Of a stretch of DNA of 64,000 nucleotides, positions 37,863 through 57,103 are shown one piece after another. Source of the DNA: Actinostola sp. cb2023. Taxonomy: Eukaryota > Cnidaria > Anthozoa > Actiniaria > Actinostolidae. Under the pieces are notes generated by a model. It saw nothing but the letters and a program-made list of their open reading frames with translations. It ran no database searches and was not told the DNA's origin. Position numbers and translations under genes: made by a program. The stretch is taken from positions 62,001-126,000 of the forward strand of contig JAUJYZ010001069.1 in assembly GCA_033675265.1 (NCBI GenBank). Direction: 5' to 3'. Each line of letters starts with the position of its first letter. Position 1 is the stretch's first letter.

Positions 37863-39852
37863 TCAGCATCTGTCCCATTGCCAAGGCACACTTCCCTCAT
37901 TGCAAAAGTAATCAGTGAACATATCCCTTGCTTCTTTGGCTTTTTTGCTTGCATTGTGGCCAGTGCTTGGGATTGGCAATGCACGCATTTGGTCTGTACC
38001 TGTGCGCCAGGAACCTGCAGCAACTTCTCCGGTTGTAAGATCTTCTTCGTCAACCAAGCCTTTTGGACAATATACCTGTCTTGAAGAGTTGGTGGATCGA
38101 AGCAAGTTATGAAGTGTTAAGGCAGCCATAATGATGTCTTCAACATATGAAGGTGAAAGTGCCATGACTGTCAGAAACACTCTCCACCTGTTAGCTACAA
38201 TGCCAAATAGGTTTTCTGACAGTCGTATTGCTCTGCTGTGCCTGAAAATGACAATGATATTTATTGTAACGTAATTTTATAGGGGCGTAGCTAGGCTGTC
38301 TTCAGATAAGAGGGGGTTCTAGGCCTTAATTAGTATGTACATGCTATAATTTCATTAATTATTGTATCATCTATATATAATCCCATACAAGCACCTATAG
38401 TAATTTTTTTAAAGAAAATACATATGATATAATTAACAAGTAACAGGACTACATGCCTGTTGTACAATTTGGAACGTTAACAAATTGAAGATGGTTTTGA
38501 GTTGTCTGTACTCTTATTGACACGTACACACTTGACGTCATAAAATGTTCAAAACTCAAGTGGAATCACGAGCGTAGCAGTCATAACAAGGGTTCCAATA
38601 ATGTAAATTTAATAAAGCCGCAAGAACTGGTGCCAACCCGAAAACAAATGATACACGGAGCATAAATAATTATTTGTGACTTCTGTTACCATACCATGAC
38701 ACTTGATGATCATATTAAGAGGGTGTAATAAAATAAATATTATTTGTAAAATCAATCCAGATAGAAAGTACAGATGAATTGATCACAGTTACTGCTTTAT
38801 TCCCATTAATCATTACAACCCCCCTCCCCCACCAGCACCACACACACTCTCACCCCCACCCCACCACACCAAAAAAGACAATATAGTAGGAACAAAACCT
38901 AACCTGTAGTTGTAAATGCGGTTCTCTACCATCAGATTTCTCTGGGGGTATGGTTTCATTATAAATGGCCTAAGTGCAAAGGCATCATCCCCTACCAGGA
39001 CATGGGGCATGGGATCTTTTCCAAACGGGAGTGGCTTATCTTCTGGGACACCCATCCCACCGATTTCCAGTTTCTTGAGTAAGCTGCACTTATTCCACAC
39101 CCCACCATCTGAAACTCGGCCATTAGTGCCGACATCTGCGTATATGCACTCATAATTTGGCCCAGCCACTGCCATCAGTACAATGGAGTGAGTATGCTTG
39201 TAATTAAAATAATGTGATCCTGATGCTGGAGGTGGACGTATAACCACGTGCTTACCATCAACGGCACCAATACAATTAGGATACTGCCATTTTCGTTCGA
39301 ATTCATCGGCAATCACGGACCATTCTTGTGGAGTGGATGGTACAGCATGAATTTTGGTCCAAGTATTTTGTAGATAGCATGACAGACCTCGCGAATGATA
39401 TAAGAAATCGTCGCTTTTCCCATGCGAAATTGAAAGTGGAGCGATGCAAATGTTTCACCGGTGGCAAGAAATCTTAGTGCAAGAGTTAATCTTTCTGCCG
39501 AAGAAATGACTTTATGCCCACCCTGTATTTGGAATTTGGCGATTTCTGGCTCGATAGCCGTCAGAATGGTAGTAAATGTTTCCCGATCCATTCTCATCAT
39601 CTCTTTGAATCCTACAGTGTCCTCCACTTGCAATTCCCGTACGACATTGTACAGTCCTTTTTCTTCTCTTCTCCTTATCCATTGTCTCGTCTTACCTCGC
39701 TTCCAGTGTCGTTTCTCTTCAGACTCATCCAACAAATTCAAAAAAACAAAACAGCAAGCAGCTTTTTTCCACTGTAACATATCCATTTCACAAGAGTCAC
39801 AAGTGTTTACTCGACTCCGCCATTTTGTTTTCACACGGCCGGAAACTGGCAC
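37863..39852 (-). CDS. PIF/Harbinger DDE nuclease (DDE_Tnp_4), two exons, one frameshift
   Basis: Exon 1 is 39852-38904 and exon 2 is 38241-37863 (GT-AG). Start MPVSGRVKTK. The N-terminal helical region has a helix-turn-helix feel (FRMGKATISYIIREV). Catalytic acids: D in CIGAVDGKH, D in HVLVGDDAF and E in LSENLFGIVANRWRVF, the last one split off by the intron. One frame change near 39365-39370, between the N-terminal region and the TPQEW block, divides an otherwise open frame. It could be a real mutation, a read error or a tiny intron. The enzyme would cut and paste the surrounding element with TWA target preference. Confidence 0.88.
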
Positions 39853-42671: not shown

Positions 42672-45435
42672 TTGGCTGTTCTGGGGTACGATTTTGCTCC
42701 TCCTGAGGCTGGTCGTCTATCTCGGAGAATAGGGACCTTAAGCACCGGACCATCTACGACGCGGACATCGGAAAATGACAGTGTGAGATTGGTGCGAGGT
42801 AAAATCGGCGTCACGGCATTTGTTTACCTTAAGCAAACGTACCGTCACGTTACTCGTTATTGTCGAGTTTTCAGGCTTTTTTAATGTAAATGGCATCGTT
42901 TAAAGAGTTTCATCGATGGAGACATAGATGAAAACGAGTACGTTACTGTTGTATGATTTGAACTGCTAAAAAAAAACGAATTTCCACACAAAAACTATGA
43001 GAGTTTTGATATCGATAACATGGATCCTGCAGAGTGTAAGGCAGAATTCCGCTTTGAAAAACATCACCTCGATTTGTTAGCAGAATCTCTGGGAATCCCA
43101 GAAGTGCTTATTTGTGAACAACGAAGTGTTTGTGATGGCCTCGAAGGTTTGTGCATGCTTCTACGTTGCTTTACATATCCTTGCCGGTATAGCGGTCTGA
43201 TTCCAAGGTTTGGAAAACCTGTACCAGTTATAAGCATGGTAACTAATATGGTCATGCAATGGATCTATGACAATCACCACCATCGTATAACTGGCTGGAA
43301 TGCTGCTCTATTAGACCCTGTCTTTTTGCAGCAATATGCAATATGTTCATCGTAAAGGTAAAGTTGCAAATTCGCAAACTTGATTTGTCTCAATCATTAT
43401 ATTATCATTATATTATCCGATGACAGTTGTTCCAAATTATCCAATATTTATTACAGAATATAATTCTACTGAATTATTGATAGGTATTTTCTCTATATTA
43501 GTAATTTTAAATTATATATTACATTTAATTTATACATTTTTTAATTTTAATTTAATTTCTGTTCATTTTAATTTATTAAAGGGGCACTGTCACGACGCGC
43601 GCATGCGTCAATTTTAATGATATGCTGTGATTTTTAATGATATGCAGAGGTCAACGAACTCGTTTGTTTACGAAGAGAAATGCGCTAGTAAATTTCAATG
43701 TTGTGTTTTGAAAGTGTTTTACCGTCAAGCTTTCGCAGAGTGCTTCCAACTTATTCAGAATATACAACCTTTACAGCGTGTGACCTAAATATTTCATGAA
43801 ATAAGTACTTATTATAGAGACTTCTGGTGAAGGAACGGCGATAAATAGCAGACAATCCGAGGTGACAACTCAGGTCTCAGATAAAGTTATTCACATTTCA
43901 CATCGCTAAAAACCAAGTTCGTATTACTTCTTTGCTTCAAAAAAGACTAACGAAGATGTACATGTCACAACTGTATAAGGTACTCGTGTTTTCTTAAATT
44001 GTAAGAGTACAAAAGAGTGCAAAAATAACTGCACAATATAATTCCCGTGTGAAAAGTATAATCACTGAGTTCTCTTTGCCGTTGTGTCACTACTTCCAAA
44101 CCTCGCAGAAATAAAAACTCATACAATGTGACAGTTGTTTGCAATAGCTTCAGTTCATATGAACTCGAAGGAATACATTGATATGATGTATACAACTGAG
44201 TTATTTTTGAGAACATAATAATTCGAGTGAATAAGTCAATGAACGCGTTGTCAAACATTGTTGTTGTCGTTCGGAATACTTTCCTACCTCCTTTGGTACT
44301 CCAGCGCTGTTAAAGAGAAGTATAGCGAACTCAGAATCTGTAGTATAACCGTATTCTATCTTCCCAGTAAACCAAAACTTATAAACCTGTCGCCTGAATA
44401 CATTCGTTGTCAACCACTACATCCCGGCGGCAGCCATGAGAAGCCATCGCCATCGCTCTCGCCGATTAAATAAAAAGCGTATAAAATTGGACTTCAAACC
44501 AAAAATAACTACCTACAAATACGAAACAACAATCAATCTAAGTACTGAATAAGTATCATCTTCTAGAGTGCAAGGATTACAATGATATAATTCGATATAT
44601 TAACACACTGAATTTGAATTTTCCTCGGGTCTCTTGAAAGCATTGGTCAACGATTTCAAGATTGAAGCCAAGATTCGCGCATGCGTGTGTCGTGACAGTG
44701 CCCCTTTAAACATGTCTTGTTTAAAAGTATTCGTGTTATTTCTTATAATTTATTAATTTAATTAATTTTTATCATTTTTATTTTATTTAGAATATTGATC
44801 TAAAAAAATATTTTATTTTGTTTTGAGTAATCTAGGTTTAGGTTACTGTCCCCAATTTGTGGTTTGTAACTGCTATCAGATTTGACACTGAAATAAAGTT
44901 TCTATTTTATAAAGCTGCTGCCCTGGACAATTGTTTTGGGTTTATCGATGGCATGGTCCGACCTATCTGTCGACCAGGACAATCCCAAAGAATTGTCTAC
45001 AATGGCCATAAGAGGGTTCATGCCCTGAAGTTTCAGTCAGTTACCTTGCTCATGAATTCAGGTCTCCTGAACCAGCTTCAGCAGAATGCTGTGTCACCTG
45101 CAGGTCATCCTCTTTGTCTGTATGGTGATCCAGCCTATCCTTTACGAGTACATCTTCAGGCACCATTTAGAAATGATATACTTACACCGCAGATGCAGCA
45201 GTTTAATGCGTCAATGAGTGCTGTTCGCACATCAGTTGAATGGCTATTTGGAGATATTATCAGCTATTTCAAGTTTTTAGATTATAAAAAAAATCTGAAA
45301 ATTGGTCTGAGTTCAATAGGTGAAATGTATGTAGTGTGTGCCATATTACGTAATGCAATGGCGTGTCTCTACCATAATCAAACTTCTGATTTTTTTAACA
45401 TTGAACCACCAACAATTCAAGAATACTTTGCTTGA
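42672..45435 (+). pseudogene. DDE_4 (Harbinger-like) transposase with inserted intronic element and core deletion
   Basis: The N-terminal exon (ATG 43020; earlier coding from about 42970 is possible) reads MDPAECKAEFRF, LAESLGIPEVLIC, GLEGLCMLLRCFTYPCRY and ends near 43350. The C-terminal exon 44857-45435 has FGFIDGMVRPICRPG (first Asp), YNGHKRVHALKFQSV, then YGDPAYPLRVHLQAPF, VEWLFGDIISYFKF (Glu) and a complete C-terminus. Between FQSV and SGLLNQL about 20-25 residues that normally hold GPxExRRHD, the second Asp, are missing, so catalysis should be lost. The intron is enlarged by the TTAA-flanked element at 43580-44705. Confidence 0.82.
43580..44705. mobile_element. TTAA-flanked non-autonomous element, 1.13 kb
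   Basis: Ends AGGGGCACTGTCACGAC and inverse, followed by cgcgcgcatgcg. TTAA occurs at 43576-43579 and 44706-44709. No ORF worth calling. Confidence 0.92.
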
Positions 45436-46991: not shown

Positions 46992-47296
46992 CTTCACGCC
47001 GACTGAGAGAAAAGTACTGGTCTTACAAAAATAGTTTTATTGATACAAATGTCGCTGTTATTTCAATCAAAAACGGAAAATTTATAAAGATTATGCACTG
47101 AAGTAAGACCAGAAGCTCTTCTGTTTTCTACGGAAAAAAATAGTTTTAAAACGACCTTTTATCGGCGACGTGAAAGTAAACAAATTGACGTCGGGGACGG
47201 CGAGCGGTACGCTCGTATCCAATGGCAACACCTAATTAAAATGCACAAAATTACTTCCAGTCGACGTCCACGTCCTAGGTTTTTCCAGGTGCTTAA
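46992..47296. other. Upstream region, no gene
   Basis: Likely promoter side of the Myb-like gene and the left flank of the 7.2 kb element; TTAA at 47293. Confidence 0.4.
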
Positions 47297-48091
47297 GAGG
47301 CTGTCTCTGTAAGAACGGTCCACTCGATCTCGGACTCCAAAATGGATTTTCTTTATATTTTTACCGTGAATCACACTAACTATCGTTACTACTAAAATGA
47401 AGTTAGAATGATCGAAAAGGTTATTTTACCGAAGTTCTGAGGATTTGAAATGTTACGGTCGCTGAGCGACAAAAGTGCACTAAATTAAATTCCATAATAC
47501 ATGGTTTTTATGGCCGTTTAAAAATTATTCGCATAATCAAAACCAGAGGATTTAACCCTCAACCGAAAGTTTAGGATGTCTTTAGTTGGTTTATGTATCA
47601 TTTGGTCTTTTTCTCGCTCGAAGACGGAAAATAAATGGAAATTATCTCACCCCACTCCACTTGTAACGTAAACATAATGAAATTATGGTTCAAAATAAGG
47701 CTCGAATTCTTGCTTGTGGCACCTGGGCTAGACCTAAAACCTCATTCAAAACAGAGATTAAAACTTCTATTGCTGATTTATCGAATAAAACTTGCGGCAC
47801 AATCCGATTCCGTAAAACCAGGTTGGCGTGAATATTGCCATTCTGATGTGAGCCGATTGCGTGACACGTCAGAATGAGGTACTGTTAGCTGTTTTGTTAT
47901 TCCCTCTATAGTCCATATTCTGTCCCCAAAGAAGTGAAATTCCATCATAAGAAGAGAAACGTTTATGTGCTGCAGTTATTTTGTGTTGAAAGCTATTTTT
48001 ATGCAACATCATCTTACAGCAAGGTGTAGCAACCGCCGTGACAAGTTGTCTTATATTTTGTGTTCTATAAATAGCTCTCTAATGAGAGAAG
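47297..48091 (+). repeat. Left 795 bp terminal inverted repeat
   Basis: Pairs with 53699-54492. It contains an 80-codon ORF (47635-47877) that also appears in the other arm (53912-54154) with one residue or so changed; this looks like conserved DNA and not a gene. Confidence 0.95.
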
Positions 48092-48490
48092 AGAACTGAA
48101 GAAGAGAAAATCTTTATAAAACAACCTAAACAAAATCTTTTTTTAAAGAGAGAAAACACAGTAAGTGTATTAAATGAATTCGTAATGGTAGATCAAAACT
48201 TTTATTTTATACTTGATCAGTCGAAATCAATCTTGTTCTTAGTTCTGGGTAAAAGGCATAAACTGTAATTTCCTAGAAGTAAACTTTCACAAGATGTACA
48301 AAAAAAGTTAAAACTGACTGTAGAGTTTATTGTTAGAAAACTGAGAAAAGCGGGAAAAGGGGAAAAAATGAATTCTCATTGTTGTCATTAAGTTCTAGTT
48401 TAGGTACCATATTGTCTGCCACATTGTCTGGTTAAGTTCACACTGAATTAATTATCGACTCCAGTTTGCTTGCGGAATTGTTTTTCAAAC

Positions 48491-51400
48491 ATGGCTTTCG
48501 ATAGTTGCAATTTCAGAGAGTATACAAAGATTACTTGTGGAGGTTCACGTGGCCTCCATGAACTTAAAAAGTTATCCGATTGCCTGGATGAAATAACGGC
48601 ACACTTGCAAAGTTGTAACTTGACGAGGTCGTCAGAGTTGACCGAAGCAAAGCTGATCCTCGCAAGAGCTGGTCACTTTGACTTAACTGAGGAGCAGGTG
48701 GAATATATGTTCATTTGTCCTCAGCACCGTCATAACCTCGGAAGATTTTGGCGTGCTCCGCGTTCTTGTCAACATCCACTACACAGTGGACCACGCCCAC
48801 GCAAAAAGCAGTGCAAGGACAGGCACGTCATTGGCGTTGTCACTGCTAAAGAAATTCATACTATTTGTAAAACCACCATTGGAATTGGATCACGTATGTA
48901 ATAACAATTTTCTTTTGCATCCAAACTGCATGTTTTTTCGTAAGCAGACACTAGTTTGATAGTAATAGGCCCGGGGGGGGGGGGGGGGGGGGTACTCTCC
49001 TATATACGCTATACGGGTATGTGTCGCGGGATAGGGTATGGTTTTTGAGCTCCCAGGTCTGGGGTAGGGTATCATTCTTTGTCTTTTTAGGCTGGGATTG
49101 GGGGGTACGTTTTGGTCTGGTATAGGGTATGGTTTCCGCAATAACGCCACTATCACTTTACATATCCCTTTAGCACGCTTTCAATCTGGGATAGGGTATA
49201 CATTTTTAAGCTTTAGTCTGGGATAGGGTATACATTTTTAAGCTTTAGTCTGGGATAGGGTATACATTTTTTAGCTTTAGTCTGGGATAGGGTGTACATT
49301 TTTAAGCTTTAGTCTGGAATAGGGTATGGAAAATCAAAATTTTAGGTCTGGGATAGGGTCAGGGTTTTGAGGTGTCCGCGACACACCCCTACCCAAAAAT
49401 ACCCTTAGTGCCCGGGGGGTAATAGGTAGTTATTTTAAAATATTTTTATTTTAGCAATATGCGGAAAGTGTCGAGCTAAGCACAAAGACATGGTGACTAA
49501 TAGCATGAAGTGGCTAAAGCCAACGACCGACGAAGAATCCCTTGAGTTTCCCGATGTTAGTGCATACAACGTGCGAGAGAGGTAATTTATCAGCATAGGC
49601 TGGTGTTCCCTCACCCCTTAACCCCAATATTCTTCTCATCCCAATAAAACATAACTGTTGTCCAAACACGTAAAAAAGTGTTTTATTTGAGTATTTGAAG
49701 AGAATAGTAAGATAATTGTGTTTACGATAATTTTATTAATTTTTATTAATTTTTATTTAATTTATTCGTCACAAGATTCATGACAGGAAAGGTCACATTG
49801 GACACCGGGATGCTGGAGTGGCCCAGGAAGTGGGAACTCTCAGGAAGACATAATTGATACTTACAGTGCAGATAGAAATGGCGTTCTTTCCGATTATAAC
49901 GAAGCAATGGCAACACTGTCAAAGCACACAGAAACTAAAAACCTCCAGCCATTGACCTTCCAGCTGTCCACCACTTGGGAGGACGCAACGCCTGAAGACA
50001 AAGAGAGATGCGTGGAAAAAGCAACAGACGCATGTAACGTTATCTGCGATATAATTGCACCAAAAGATGGAAATAAACTGTTTCAAGCAATGCAACAGCT
50101 TCCACAGCCCGAATGCGTAAGCCCTAGTGATGACCTGGTCGCTTTAATGTCAGCTTATCGTGATGCCTCTACTAAGAACGTGAAGACTCAGATACTGAGT
50201 TTATATGCATACAGGTACACTATGAAAGTCTTACAAAGGTTCCACGAACCGTTCGAAAAGATTAGTCTTCGTCAAATCAAGCAAGCACGATCACACGCGA
50301 GAAAGCGAGGGCCTGGGTCTAGTGTTCCCAAATTAGTTAGTCACCGCATTCGTTTGGACACTTTGAAGGTCGATCATTTTATTGACTTTGTCAATCGTCC
50401 ATATTTTTATCAAGACGTCGCTTTTGGGACAAGAACGCTAACTCTTGACGGGGGAAGTCAATTAACGATGCCCAATGTCATTCGCACTGTCACAAGATCG
50501 ACTATGATAATGCAGTATCTTCAGCATTGCCAAGAGGAATCGTTTGAACCTGTAAGTCGTTCTACTCTATATCGCATACTCGAGGTACGAGAAGCCTCGC
50601 AGCAAAAGTCACTCAGCGGGCTCGATAATACGGCTGCTGAAGGAGTGTCATCCTTTCAACGACTGATGGGGATACTTGATGAACTTAGTCAGGTAGGTGC
50701 AGACAAGGGTAAAGTAAAGGAACTGAAGACGAAGCTGCGCGATGGAAATAAATATTTAAAAACAGAGTTCAAAGTGAATTGCTCCATTAAGGAAAGTGAG
50801 TGCGCAGACCACTGTAGACAATTTGCTTTAAGCGATCCGAGTGAGAAAGAATTTCAAACCACGTGCTCTCACTCACACACCATGTTGTGCCATCACTGTG
50901 AAGAGCTAAAGACAACGCTACACGAGATAGAGCAAAACATTGAAAAACATTCAAATGATCTATATTCCCAAGAACAACGGGACGATCTCTTGCATTATTT
51001 CAAAAGCTCTAAAAACGGTATTCTTCTTTGGAAATCTCACATTATTCGTTCTGTTAACCAAGAATCAGCTAAGCAAGAGCTTTTGCAGAACTTTGACGAC
51101 GAATCTGCGTTAATTGTAATTGACTGGGCAATGAAATTTGTTCAAACCAAATACAGAGAAAAACAGAGTGATTGGTTCGGTAAGCGAGGACTCAGTTGGC
51201 ATATCAGTAGTGTCGTTACTCGAGATCAAGAAACACAACAAATCAAAGTCCTCTCATACGCCCATTTATTTGATTCCTGTTCTCAGGATTGGTATGCAGT
51301 CGCTTCAATTCTAGAAAACCTACTTAGAAATATTAAAGTAAACTTTCCATCGGTAAAAGAAGTGTACTTGCGCTCTGACGAAGCTGGCTGCTACCACAAT

Positions 51401-52721
51401 AATCACCTTATTGCGGCTGCAAGAGATATTGGAGATCGTGTTGGAATTACGGTAGTGCGCTATGACTTTTCAGAACCACAACAAGGGAAAGATATATGCG
51501 ACAGAGTACTGTGTCCTATGAAGGGAGCAATCAGAAAGTATTGTGCAGAAGGACATGATATCATTAATGTGTCAAACATGCGAGAGGCACTGAAAGAACG
51601 GCCCATTAAAGGAACAACGGCAGCTGTAAGCATTTTGAATGATTCGAAGAAAAACCTGCAAATCAATAAGATAACACGCTTCAGTGAATTACACAACTTT
51701 CGATACGAGAATAGTGGGCTGAGAGTTTGGAAGGCATACGCTGTTGGTATTGGGAAGCTCATCCCTTGGCAGTCATTGTATGTGCGACATCAAGGACCAA
51801 CCAACCTATCAATGAACGAAGGACAGGGTTTTTTCGAATCTACTCAAATGAGGAAGTTGCCCATTAAAAAGCATCAGGAAGAGAACGATGAAAACGAAGA
51901 AGAAGCACACTTGTTCTTGTGTCCTGAAGCAGGTTGCACGGATACATTTGATTCATTTTCAGAACTGGAACTGCATATAGATGTAGGAGTACATGAGATT
52001 CCAGACGCCAAGGTGTCGTTTTATGACACAATTCGAAAGGACTGGGCAGAAAAAATTTCTTCTGTCGATGTAAGTCACGTGAGCACCGTACAGGTTCCTA
52101 TGAGTAGTGCTGTAAGGCAGGGAACGTCCTCACATCTAAGCACTGGATGGGCTCTAGCAAAGCCTAAAACTGGTGGTGTTCGTTTCTCCAAAAAAGTACG
52201 AATGTACCTGACCACAAAGTTTGGAATTGGAGAAAGGACTGGGAGAAAAGCTGATCCAGACGAAGTTGCGTTAAACATGCGTAATGCAAGGAACGAAAAG
52301 AACGAGCGGTTGTTCTTAAGAGAGGAGTGGTTAACAAAAACACAGGTTGCAGGGTTTTTTTTCACGATTAGCATCAAGGCAGAAGTCTCGTGGGCAAGAA
52401 GCTCTACCAACAGATGAAGAATTGCAATCAGAAGAAGGTGATCGACAAGACATTGAATGCCTCATTAGAGCATCTGACCACTATACATTGATGAACGACA
52501 TTGATAATGAGATCGGCCTCAAGCACCCCATAACGTTTGATGCTTTCGATCTTTGCGACCAGTACAAGAGAAGAAAGATCGAAGTATTTAATGTCGCAAT
52601 GCTTAAAGCTATTCTTAGCCATTTTGAAATCACCTATAGAGCCAAAGACCGCAAAAAGGATCTAATTCGACTGTTGGAAGAGGTTCTTCAGCATTGCCCG
52701 TGTTGTAACGACGAATCTTAA
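48491..52721 (+). CDS. Large uncharacterised protein, presumed transposase of the 7.2 kb element
   Basis: Exon 1 is 48491-48893 (MAFDSCNFREYTK; an upstream TTG is not needed). Exon 2 is 49455-49581 with ICGKCRAKH. Exon 3 opens near 49830 and is uninterrupted from ATG 49907 to 52360. A one-base change in a T8 run at 52355 shifts the last 120 residues (GFFSRLASRQK to HCPCCNDES). Landmarks: Cys/His-rich CSHSHTMLCHHCEEL, VIDWAMKF (possible first acid), FGKRGLSWHIS, LRSDEAGCYHNNHL (probable second Asp), DFSEPQQGKDICDR (possible further acids), a C2H2-type finger (CPEAGCTDTF...LHIDVGVH) and a SAP-like C-terminus (VAMLKAILSHFEITYR). The exon 2/3 junction is not resolved in phase. It sits between giant TIRs, so a DDE-type transposase role is inferred and not shown. 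Confidence 0.75.
48968..49428. mobile_element. Poly-G element with gggataggg minisatellite, in an intron
   Basis: Begins cccgggggg with about 20 G (48973-48992), then degenerate ggtctgggatagggtatggt motifs. Four to five copies of a ~33 bp unit follow (tctgggatagggtatacatt then tttaagctttag, 49186-49310). It ends acacccctac...gtgcccggggggt. TAATAGG borders both sides, a likely target duplication. The start and end are partly inverse (gtgtcgcggg/cgcgacacac). Confidence 0.8.
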
Positions 52722-52742
52722 TGAAGGCATGAGATATACAAG

Positions 52743-53272
52743 TATATACACCTATTCCAAATATCGTTGTCCGGGTCGAAAGCAACAAGCAAGAAGCTGA
52801 CGACCGCAAAGGACTTTGGGAATCTCCTAATTAAGGTATCCCTACGAGCGTTGAATAGCAATCATTTGGAACTACAGTGGAACCCCGTTATAACGGACAC
52901 CGAAGGGACCAGAGAAAGTGTCCGGTTTCTTACAGATCACCTTGATAATACAAGTGAAACTTTGTTCTTTTTCTAACAAAATGCTTATCCTCTTGCAAAT
53001 ATTCAGTTCCATTCGTCTCTAATCAGGAATAAATCTTCACGAACAATGGTGTGACGAAAGATTGTACTCAAACTGTCCGTTATAACGGGGTTGATTTTAT
53101 ATTAAATTTTGCTGTTCGGGCTGTAAAAAAAGTGTCCGTTGTCCGTTATAACGAGTGTCCGTTATACCGGGGTGTCCGTTAGGCGGGGTTCCACTCAGTA
53201 TTCGGCCATTTGAAAATGCATGTTGTCAAAATGTCTACGGATGAACGATTTTTGGAATAGGTGTATATAGTA
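52743..53272. mobile_element. MITE pair: outer tatacacctattccaaa element with an inner cagtggaacccc element
   Basis: Outer ends tatatacacctattccaaa / tttggaataggtgtatata at 52743 and 53272. Inside, 52875-53196 has ends agtggaaccccg / cggggttccact and repeated gtccgttataacgg words, resembling mariner/pogo-type MITEs. A further fragment of the inner type (gaggtgtccgtattaaaa) lies at 53578. Confidence 0.8.
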
Positions 53273-53698
53273 ATATATATAGAGTGTATATAGAGAGAGG
53301 TACTACAAGATTGTCAATGTTCAATCTCTTCAGAAAAACGCGATCTAGTTAGCAACATTGGGCCACGCCCTTACCCTTACCCTTACCCTTCTTTTCCTTA
53401 TTTTTATTTCGCTATGAAACGTCGAATTTCATGATACAGCAGCCATCACTAGTACTGATAAGAGGAAAATCATAATAAATTATTTTATCTCTTTCCGTCG
53501 AATGTACTTTGCTTTACTCCGCCGGATGAAATCGTACAGTGAAACCGCGGAAATATTAAAAGTATACCCGTAATAACGAGGTGTCCGTATTAAAAGGGTT
53601 AGTTTAAATTTTGCCGTCCGATCACTCGTTCTTACATCATGCTATTTTGTTCTTCTTCTATTTTGTTACTGTTGCTGTTTTTTGTTTTATTTTCGAAT
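53273..53698. other. Spacer of the 7.2 kb element
   Basis: No gene. A short (CCCTTA)n run at 53369-53389 looks telomere-like but has only about three units. Confidence 0.4.
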
Positions 53699-54492
53699 AT
53701 CTTCTCTCATTAGAGAGCTATTTATAGAACACAAAATATAAGACAAATTGTCACGGCGGTTGCTACTCCTTGCTGTAAGATGTTGCATAAAAATAGCTTT
53801 CAACACAAAATAACTTCAGCACATAAACGTTTCTCTTCTTATGATGGATTTTCACTTCTTTGGGGACAGAATATCGACTATAGAGGGAATAAAGAAACAG
53901 CTAACAGTACATCATTCTGACGTGTCACGCAATCGGCTCACATCAGAATGGCAATATTCACGCCAACCTGGTTTTACGGAATCGGATTGTGCCGCAAGTT
54001 TTATTCGATAAATCAGCAATAGAAGTCTTAATCTCTGTTTTGAATGAGGTTTTAGGTCTAGCCCAGGTGCCACAAGCAAGAATTCGAGCGTTATTTTGAA
54101 CCATAATTTCATTATGTTTACGTTACAAGTGGAGTGGGGTGAGATAATTTCCATTTATTTTCCGTCTTCGAGCGAGAAAAAGACCAAATGATACATAAAC
54201 CAACTAAAGACATCCTAAACTTTCGGTTGAGGGTTAAATCTTCTGGTTTTGATTATGCGAATAATTTTTAAACGGCCATAAAAAACGTGTATTATGGAAT
54301 TTAATTTAGTGCATTTTTGTCGCTCAGCGACCGTAATATTTCAAATCCTCAGAACTTCGGTAAAATAACCTTTTCGATCATTCTAACTTCATTTTAGTTG
54401 TAAGGATAGTTAGTGTGATTCACGGTAAAAATATAAAGAAAATCCATTTTGGAGTCCGAGAGCGAGTGGACCGTTCTTACAGAGACAGCCTC
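53699..54492 (-). repeat. Right 794 bp terminal inverted repeat
   Basis: Inverse of 47297-48091, ending GACAGCCTC before TTAA. Confidence 0.95.
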
Positions 54493-54615
54493 TTAAGGTC
54501 CCTAATAAATGAGCATTCTTTGGGTTGTTTAGAGGGTGTCATGATTAAAATGGAAAACAACGAGTTAACAAATAGTAGCAGGTAAGAATATTCTTGCAAA
54601 AACAAATAGTACTAC

Positions 54616-55333: not shown

Positions 55334-57103
55334 GTGACAGTGATCAATGGGAAAATAATTAATCTATCATCGGAACAAGAAATCGTCTTAAGAATAATAG
55401 AAGAAGGACAGTGTTTTTTTTACGGGTGCAGCGGGAACTGGAAAGTCTGTGGTTTTACAGTCATTGAAACGATCACAACGATTAGTTCAAAACAACATAT
55501 ATTTCACAGCGCCTACTGGTATTGCCTCAGTAAATATCGGTGGAACCACAATACATTCATTTGCAGGTAAGATACTTCATATCAATTTTAGATTTATTGT
55601 GATAAATGTTTAGCTTTCGAGCAGTTGGTTTTATTTACATTTCGTCATTACAACATTTTAAAATGATGAATTATAGTACGCCAATAATCCAACTGTACTT
55701 GTACATTCAAATATGAATTTGAATCGGATTTAGAGAACCAGTATATCGCTAATCTACCACAATAGCTAGCATAAAAGTATTTACAATTGATTTATAGGTA
55801 TTGGTCTTGGTCAAGGCAGTGCAAGAGATTGTGTTGATCGAGTATTGGGCAATCCTGAGGCTTTGAAGCGTTGGCAAAATTGCAAGACATTAGTTATAGA
55901 CGAAGTATCCATGCTAAGTCGTGATTTGTTTGAAAAACTTGAACTGATAGCTAGGTCTACCAGGAACAATAACAATTCTTTCAGAGGAATTCAACTAGTT
56001 TTATGTGGTGATTTTTACCAGCTTCCTCCCGTGGTTGGTAACAACTGCTATGCGGCAAGAGGAAGTTCGTTTTGTTTCACCTCGGAAAAATGGAACCAGT
56101 TCATACAGCACTGTCTCGAACTCAAAGAGATCCACAGACAGAAAGAAGGACATTTTTCGAACGTTTTGTCCGAGCTACGAGTGGGTAATACATCGAACTT
56201 GGATAAATTTATAAACACTTTCAGTAGACCCCTATCAGAACCACTAGACGATTTTCACTGTACTACCCTATTTTCAAAGCGTTTCCACATACTTGTACAT
56301 AACAATAGACTTTTACAGAAATTGAATGGAGATACACATACCTACGTAAGCAAAGATTCTGGATCTAAAAAGAAACATCTCGACGCTCAATCTACTGCTC
56401 CCGCCGTTTTGCAACTGAAAATAGGCGCGAAAGTTATACTTCTACAAAACTTAATTTGTCAACTTGTGAATGGGAGCCGCGGGACAGTAATTGGATTTCC
56501 CAATGATTTACCTTTGGTAAAGTCTTTTTCCGGTGAAGTTATGTCAATGAAACCCACACTATTTAAAGTCTACGATGACGTGGGAGCGCATGTAGCTTCA
56601 AGAAAACAAATCCCTATCGACTTGGCATGGAGTCTCACAATTCATAAGAGCCAGGGCCTTTTCTTAACACCTTTAAAAGTTAGCTTAAAAGAAATGTTTA
56701 TACCCAGCCAGGTATACACTGCTTTGTCTCGCTGTGTTACAGATTATTGGCCACGACAGCACAGTTAATTTCTACAAAACTGGTATCATCCCTGCTTCTA
56801 ATTACTTAAACGCCCAATTACCAACCATCAATCCAGGCAGCTCACAAGCCACACCTATGCCCAGTGTTGAAAGTGAGACACACCCAGGGATCGAAACATA
56901 TGCACCTGAATTGTTCGCCTACACCGAGGCAGAAGTAATTGAACTGTATGACGTCATCCCCGAAAATATAGTATCTCAGGTTATTACAATTATCATGGAA
57001 AACCAAAGTTACCACCAAACACTGAAAGAAGACTTAAAATCGCTGCTTAACGAAAACGGAAATTTTATTACATCTATCGGTCATTTCCTGGGATGGATTT
57101 GGA
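55334..57103 (+). pseudogene. PIF1-like DNA helicase, copy 2, two or more exons
   Basis: Exon 1 (to 55566) contains Walker A, but only after correcting a one-base shift in the T8 run at 55419 (GAAGTGKS in the shifted frame), and then a TAPTGIASVNIGGTT segment. Intron 55567-55797 is clean GT-AG. Exon 2 is open to about 56740 with Walker B (LVIDEVSMLSRDL), LCGDFYQLPPV, VNGSRGTVIGF and LTIHKSQG. A second frameshift near 56735 moves the end (IIGHDSTVNFYKTG...) to another frame. A ~120-residue acidic C-terminal extension ends at the donor GGA|GTGAGT (57103). The next exon is not visible; the Kolobok-like gene follows. Compare with copy 1 at 195. Confidence 0.85.

Follow-up and report, generated by a model that had tools for sequence, protein, structure and literature searches.

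A multi-copy, apparently TTAA-specific DNA transposon family in Actinostola, most likely of the Sola superfamily

The 64,000-nucleotide stretch of Actinostola sp. cb2023 DNA analysed here (the window; contig JAUJYZ010001069.1, positions 62,001–126,000) contains, at 47297–54492, a candidate DNA transposon with very long terminal inverted repeats (TIRs). A preliminary description made from the sequence had been unable to place its protein in any named superfamily, Sola included. To which kind of transposon does the element belong, and do its borders, its gene and its proposed recent activity hold up when other copies and relatives are compared?

The ends could be delimited as first proposed, with TTAA duplicates next to long TIRs. 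The left TIR (47297–48092, + strand; first letters GAGGCTGTCTCTGTAAGAACGG) and the right TIR (53700–54492, − strand) were defined by arm alignment, the left terminus being common to other copies, and are 97.4% identical over 796 aligned bases (780 of 801 positions once the flanking CTTAAG is counted in). TTAA lies immediately outside both arms (47293–47296 and 54493–54496; no strand), as seen in the arm alignment and a flank check and, on the left, also in other copies; the chance of finding TTAA on both sides is approximately 5 × 10−5, and the flanks beyond it agree at just 13 of 36 positions. When the element was compared with the window by BLASTN, it matched itself, its own arms, a tandem repeat inside it and a single 37-bp stretch, and nothing else. 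Elsewhere in the window, DDE_Tnp_4 domain fragments, which we take to be Harbinger-type, lie at 38816–39454 (−) and 44842–45432 (+), and a piece of a PIF1-like helicase lies just downstream of the element (55791–56765, +).

This is a multi-copy family with copies at different sites. An arm search of the source genome (424,152,321 bases, 1,594 contigs) gave at least 43 matches (40 of 50 candidates scored), and 39 of the 43 places lie inside the window or in 20 examined genomic stretches. TTAA at other copies had been proposed as a check: it stands immediately outside GAGG at 22 of 25 genomic copy ends, the 25 being the termini readable from position 1, window included. The ends without it are both of L011 and one of L014; L015, whose non-TTAA flank is identical to that of L014, was excluded (22 of 26 if counted). 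Two copies within the 25 ends, L025 and L026, share an identical 12-bp flank and may be alleles. The first bases are GAGG in all 25 ends, a count that is not independent because the ends were located through their likeness to the window arm. No empty site was found in the 20 genomic stretches, the sole spanning match being L021 with its own right border. On sequence comparison, the other genomic copies confirm the boundary of the window element, and TTAA at the copy ends points to a target duplication and a TTAA-specific element.

Three subfamilies can be distinguished: that of the window, L020 with L022–L024, and L021 with L025–L028. Similarity of the window element to the other two is concentrated in the outer ~65 bp, with one or two short matching stretches further in; L020 has no mutual BLASTN match with L021, L027 or L028, their first bases being similar by eye. 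Homologous transposases are encoded by L020, L027 and L028, which have their own arms of ~730–920 bp, and L020 contains no internal stop within the matched stretches. The window element has a second copy in L012 (98.1% identity over 4.6 kb), and L027 and L028, on different contigs with different flanks, share 98.2% identity over 4.6 kb and 97.7% over another 1.6 kb. Recent activity, which the preliminary description had derived from the near-identity of the arms, is plausible because copies elsewhere are 97–98% identical, and not because of arm identity. L009 (G000:C1206) is a 3.66-kb non-autonomous derivative without a transposase match, with TTAA at both ends; both of its arms (~1.26 kb) correspond to the right end of the window element and extend into sequence that lies past the TIR there. 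Another copy, L021 (G000:C317), is a 5.5-kb element with arms of ~1.02 kb that are 99.8% identical and a short transposase match.

Arm identity was dropped as an age clock. The arms are 97–99.8% identical in every copy compared (window, L009–L011, L020, L021, L027 and L028), and identity within copies (L009, 99.5%; L011, 98.9%; window, 97.7%; L010, 97.1%) was set against 93.2–97.4% between copies. In an arm tree, the arms of L009, L011 and L014 (inner left and right) pair by copy with support and those of L013 weakly; the pairs of the window, L010 and L012 lack resolution, the window's right arm being closer to L012 than to its own left arm. Arms of the same copy can thus be more alike than arms across copies, which makes their identity a poor clock. 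The within-copy identity and the pairing by copy suggest, though they do not prove, occasional copying of one arm onto the other, possibly during repair after excision.

The transposase gene is longer than the 836-codon open reading frame (ORF) and ~1,000-residue protein originally described. The large ORF spans 877 codons from stop to stop (49784–52417), and the full window protein would have ~1,150 residues because two more exons lie upstream. Both were revealed by tblastn with P0002 (Oculina patagonica, 1,186 residues) and have GT/AG borders: exon 1 (48491–48893, +; 134 residues; 68% identity, E 2.4e-52; GT donor at 48894) encodes a C/H-rich N-terminal module, and exon 2 (49455–49581, +) matches P0002 residues 133–177 (52%) between AG and GT splice sites. 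P0002 residues 178–202, at the join of exon 2 and the main exon, had no tblastn match within the window, and the left border of the main transposase exon (49790–52721, +; ORF list and tblastn) is approximate. The frame break noted earlier was located in the T8 run at 52355–52362: homology resumes in a different frame over 52335–52721, and P0007 (JGI source) crosses the site unbroken, with 98% and 96% identity on either side. The transposase gene of the window copy is damaged. Within intron 1, positions 48972–49420 hold a G-run plus 32-bp tandem copies of GCTTTAGTCTGGGATAGGGTATACATTTTTAA, and a comparable repeat flanks L021 elsewhere in the genome. Directly after the stop codon, at 52734–53278, a 35-bp inverted repeat surrounds a stretch with CAGTGGAACCCC...GGGGTTCCACT ends, which we take to resemble those of pogo/Tigger; this is probably a nested MITE.

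The main exon encodes a predicted RNase H-like catalytic core (51104–51547, +; model residues 409–556, numbered from 49880). Its putative catalytic aspartates—D1 in DWAMKF (51122–51124, +), D2 in RSDEAGCYH (51377–51379, +) and D3 as the second D of GKDICDR (51500–51502, +)—are each present in 110 of 110 alignment rows. The D1–D2 spacing is 79–85 in the window family, and the D2–D3 spacing is 40 throughout, in the 114 of 120 proteins whose motifs could be located. Both the protein boxes of the preliminary description and its C2H2 zinc finger (51920–51994, +; model C681, C686, H699 and H705) are present and invariant in a 52-row alignment. The SAP-like tail stands in part, as a C-terminal HeH/LEM helix–extension–helix match was found (52593–52682, +; E 1e-5) that at 25.6 bits falls under the curated cut-off of 28.9. 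At cut-off, no Pfam model fitted the transposase pieces, P0002 or P0091 and no NCBIfam model fitted the window pieces; this absence of a Pfam family says little about the kind of element. NCBIfam, PHROGs and PDB sequence searches gave nothing useful.

An RNase H fold, also proposed as something to look for, is present in structure models of the core. Foldseek gave eight matches at E ≤ 0.001, namely Argonaute-type, NurA, terminase and RuvC chains with low TM-scores, transposases not coming first; the VIA structure ranking had integrases and Mos1/SETMAR on top. These rankings of modelled structures do not single out one eukaryotic superfamily, and the best match in a viral structure library, an uncharacterised Ostreid herpesvirus protein (TM-score 0.27), is taken as reflecting the common RNase H fold only. 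Model and conservation together indicate a DDD transposase with an RNase H fold, which with TTAA at the copy ends agrees with the TTAA-specific DNA transposon first suggested. We regard it as nearly certain that the element is a DDE/D transposon.

A protein search found 383 relatives at E ≤ 0.001; among the 120 matches listed, the organism names are Oculina, Actinostola and one 'Gammaproteobacteria' MAG. The family member filed under that MAG, P0046, probably reflects animal contamination. Among P0090–P0120, 21 proteins are exactly 992 residues long and mutually 96.1–99.9% identical, as in a family that may have spread recently. Neither tblastn for relatives nor a search for the exact terminus sequence found a match in the viral contigs and genome contigs collections.

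That the protein cannot be placed is not supported by profile comparison. A Sola2-like transposase fragment retrieved 1,376 real proteins, so a family of this kind exists. The 120 of these that were listed, aligned without the query, form family B, which we take to be Sola2. The core of the window family matched the family B profile with a probability of 94.9, an E value of 4.2e-8 (single comparison) and a score of 63, compared with 18 for the reversed profile and 23.3 for the best of 100 column shuffles; identity is 19% over 202 columns. In family B, D fills the three Asp columns in 102, 116 and 114 of 120 rows; in the third column, the Asp of the GK..CDG box aligns with D3 of the window family. 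Of the 101 family B proteins measured (of 120), 93 have a D2–D3 spacing of 40; the D1–D2 spacing is mostly 80–88 in this family. Judged by these profiles, the catalytic core is homologous to that of a large, already sequenced transposase family.

Sola3 elements have a TTAA target with a 4-bp duplication, a DDD transposase and GAG...CTC ends, and are found in cnidarians. These features recur here: TTAA at 22 of 25 ends, a DDD core with an RNase H fold, and GAG...CTC ends. It is highly probable that the element belongs to the Sola superfamily and likely that it is Sola3 by name; the reading that we favour overall, with good probability, is a Sola element that moves by cut and paste, most likely one of the TTAA-specific Sola3 group. 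Counting against this reading are the ends of L011 and L014 that lack TTAA, the lack of an observed empty site, a TIR length and target unlike those of amoebozoan Sola2, a target and ends that would suit Kolobok too, and a Foldseek ranking not led by transposases. The family is new and its transposase class already known, Sola being most likely. UniRef names one family B member 'Cc8L18.2-like', and the accessible part of one report describes Sola2-derived MITEs in Cotesia bracovirus segments (PMC7822920); both agree with family B being Sola2 but do not prove it. No statement on the Sola3 sequence or target was found in the accessible parts of the literature searched, including PMC5199201, PMC4455052, PMC9976928, PMC10294476, PMC8634313 and PMC5753468, nor anything on Sola targets in those of PMC8969392 and PMC7998251.

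Several other explanations were weighed. A spliced and conserved gene would suit a host gene family lying between chance palindromes, but this was rejected as scarcely conceivable, since the family occurs in many places with termini that are conserved, with TTAA and with genes that are damaged or deleted. piggyBac shares the TTAA target, but its ends are CCY. The ends here are GAG and the Pfam matches include no piggyBac transposase domain, so that piggyBac, a very remote prospect, was also rejected. A divergent lineage of Kolobok, whose elements use TTAA and, according to the accessible part of PMC9587614, have 5'-RR and YY-3' ends, would account for the TTAA target and the GA...TC ends observed, and Kolobok has been reported from cnidarians in the same source. 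That source also describes C/DxxH between the second D and the last acidic residue and, in nearly all Kolobok except Kolobok1, a zinc finger between D2 and the third catalytic residue; in the window family, however, only 2 of 114 proteins have C/DxxH between D2 and D3, and the 40-residue spacing in all 114 leaves no room for a zinc-finger insertion, none being seen in the model. No THAP domain, usual in Kolobok (PMC6004289, accessible part), turned up when the window pieces, P0002 and P0091 were matched to Pfam, and profile comparison, made with family B, gave a clear match to that family instead. Kolobok was rejected on the motif, the spacing and THAP, and we consider it quite improbable.

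A separate, unnamed TTAA-specific superfamily, or a fourth Sola-like group sharing only a deep ancestor with Sola2, would be in keeping with a TIR length and target unlike those of amoebozoan Sola2 (PMC3627910, accessible part). It would also suit the lack of a fitting Pfam or NCBIfam model and a family B match that is clear but remote (19%, 202 columns). We nevertheless hold it to be rather unlikely: relatives in named cnidarian genomes would make a Repbase entry likely, and the features coincide with those of Sola3. Also unlikely, in our view, is a separate TTAA-specific DD40D group, sister to Sola2 and not Sola3, whose 0.7–1.3-kb arms are kept alike within a copy by transfer of one end's sequence to the other, a reading drawn from subfamilies whose likeness is largely limited to the outer ~65 bp although the same-copy arms compared are 97–99.8% identical, and from the right-end sequence being present twice in L009.

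For the Sola transposon that we favour, the spliced gene would yield a transposase of ~1,150 residues comprising, in order, the N-terminal C/H-rich module, a helical region, the RNase H-like DD40D core, the C2H2 finger and the HeH/LEM-like tail. This protein would recognise the GAGGCTGTC... ends, excise the element by two-metal-ion catalysis and join it into TTAA, leaving TTAA on either side; we infer these reaction steps and the DNA-binding roles of the modules. To a transposon group without a Pfam match here, the family contributes a well-delimited, multi-copy example whose ends, target and protein are clear. Since at least one genomic relative, L020, has no internal stop in the stretches matched, the family could serve in tests of DNA cutting and joining by this group and of how terminal repeats of such length keep their similarity.

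Compared by description only, the window element shares the TTAA target, the DDD residues and the GAG...CTC ends with Sola3. In the rows for Mos1 mariner and retroviral integrases identity is 11–12%, which does not imply membership. Amoebozoan Sola2, with AT-rich 4-bp duplications such as AWWT and TIRs of 12–21 bp in the accessible part of PMC3627910, differs in both TIR length and target. Kolobok has the TTAA target and RR...YY ends seen here; its C/DxxH, its zinc finger between D2 and the last acidic residue and its THAP domain were not found in the window family. The core of family B is homologous by profile, with the same D2–D3 spacing of 40 and the same GK..CD box as the window family.
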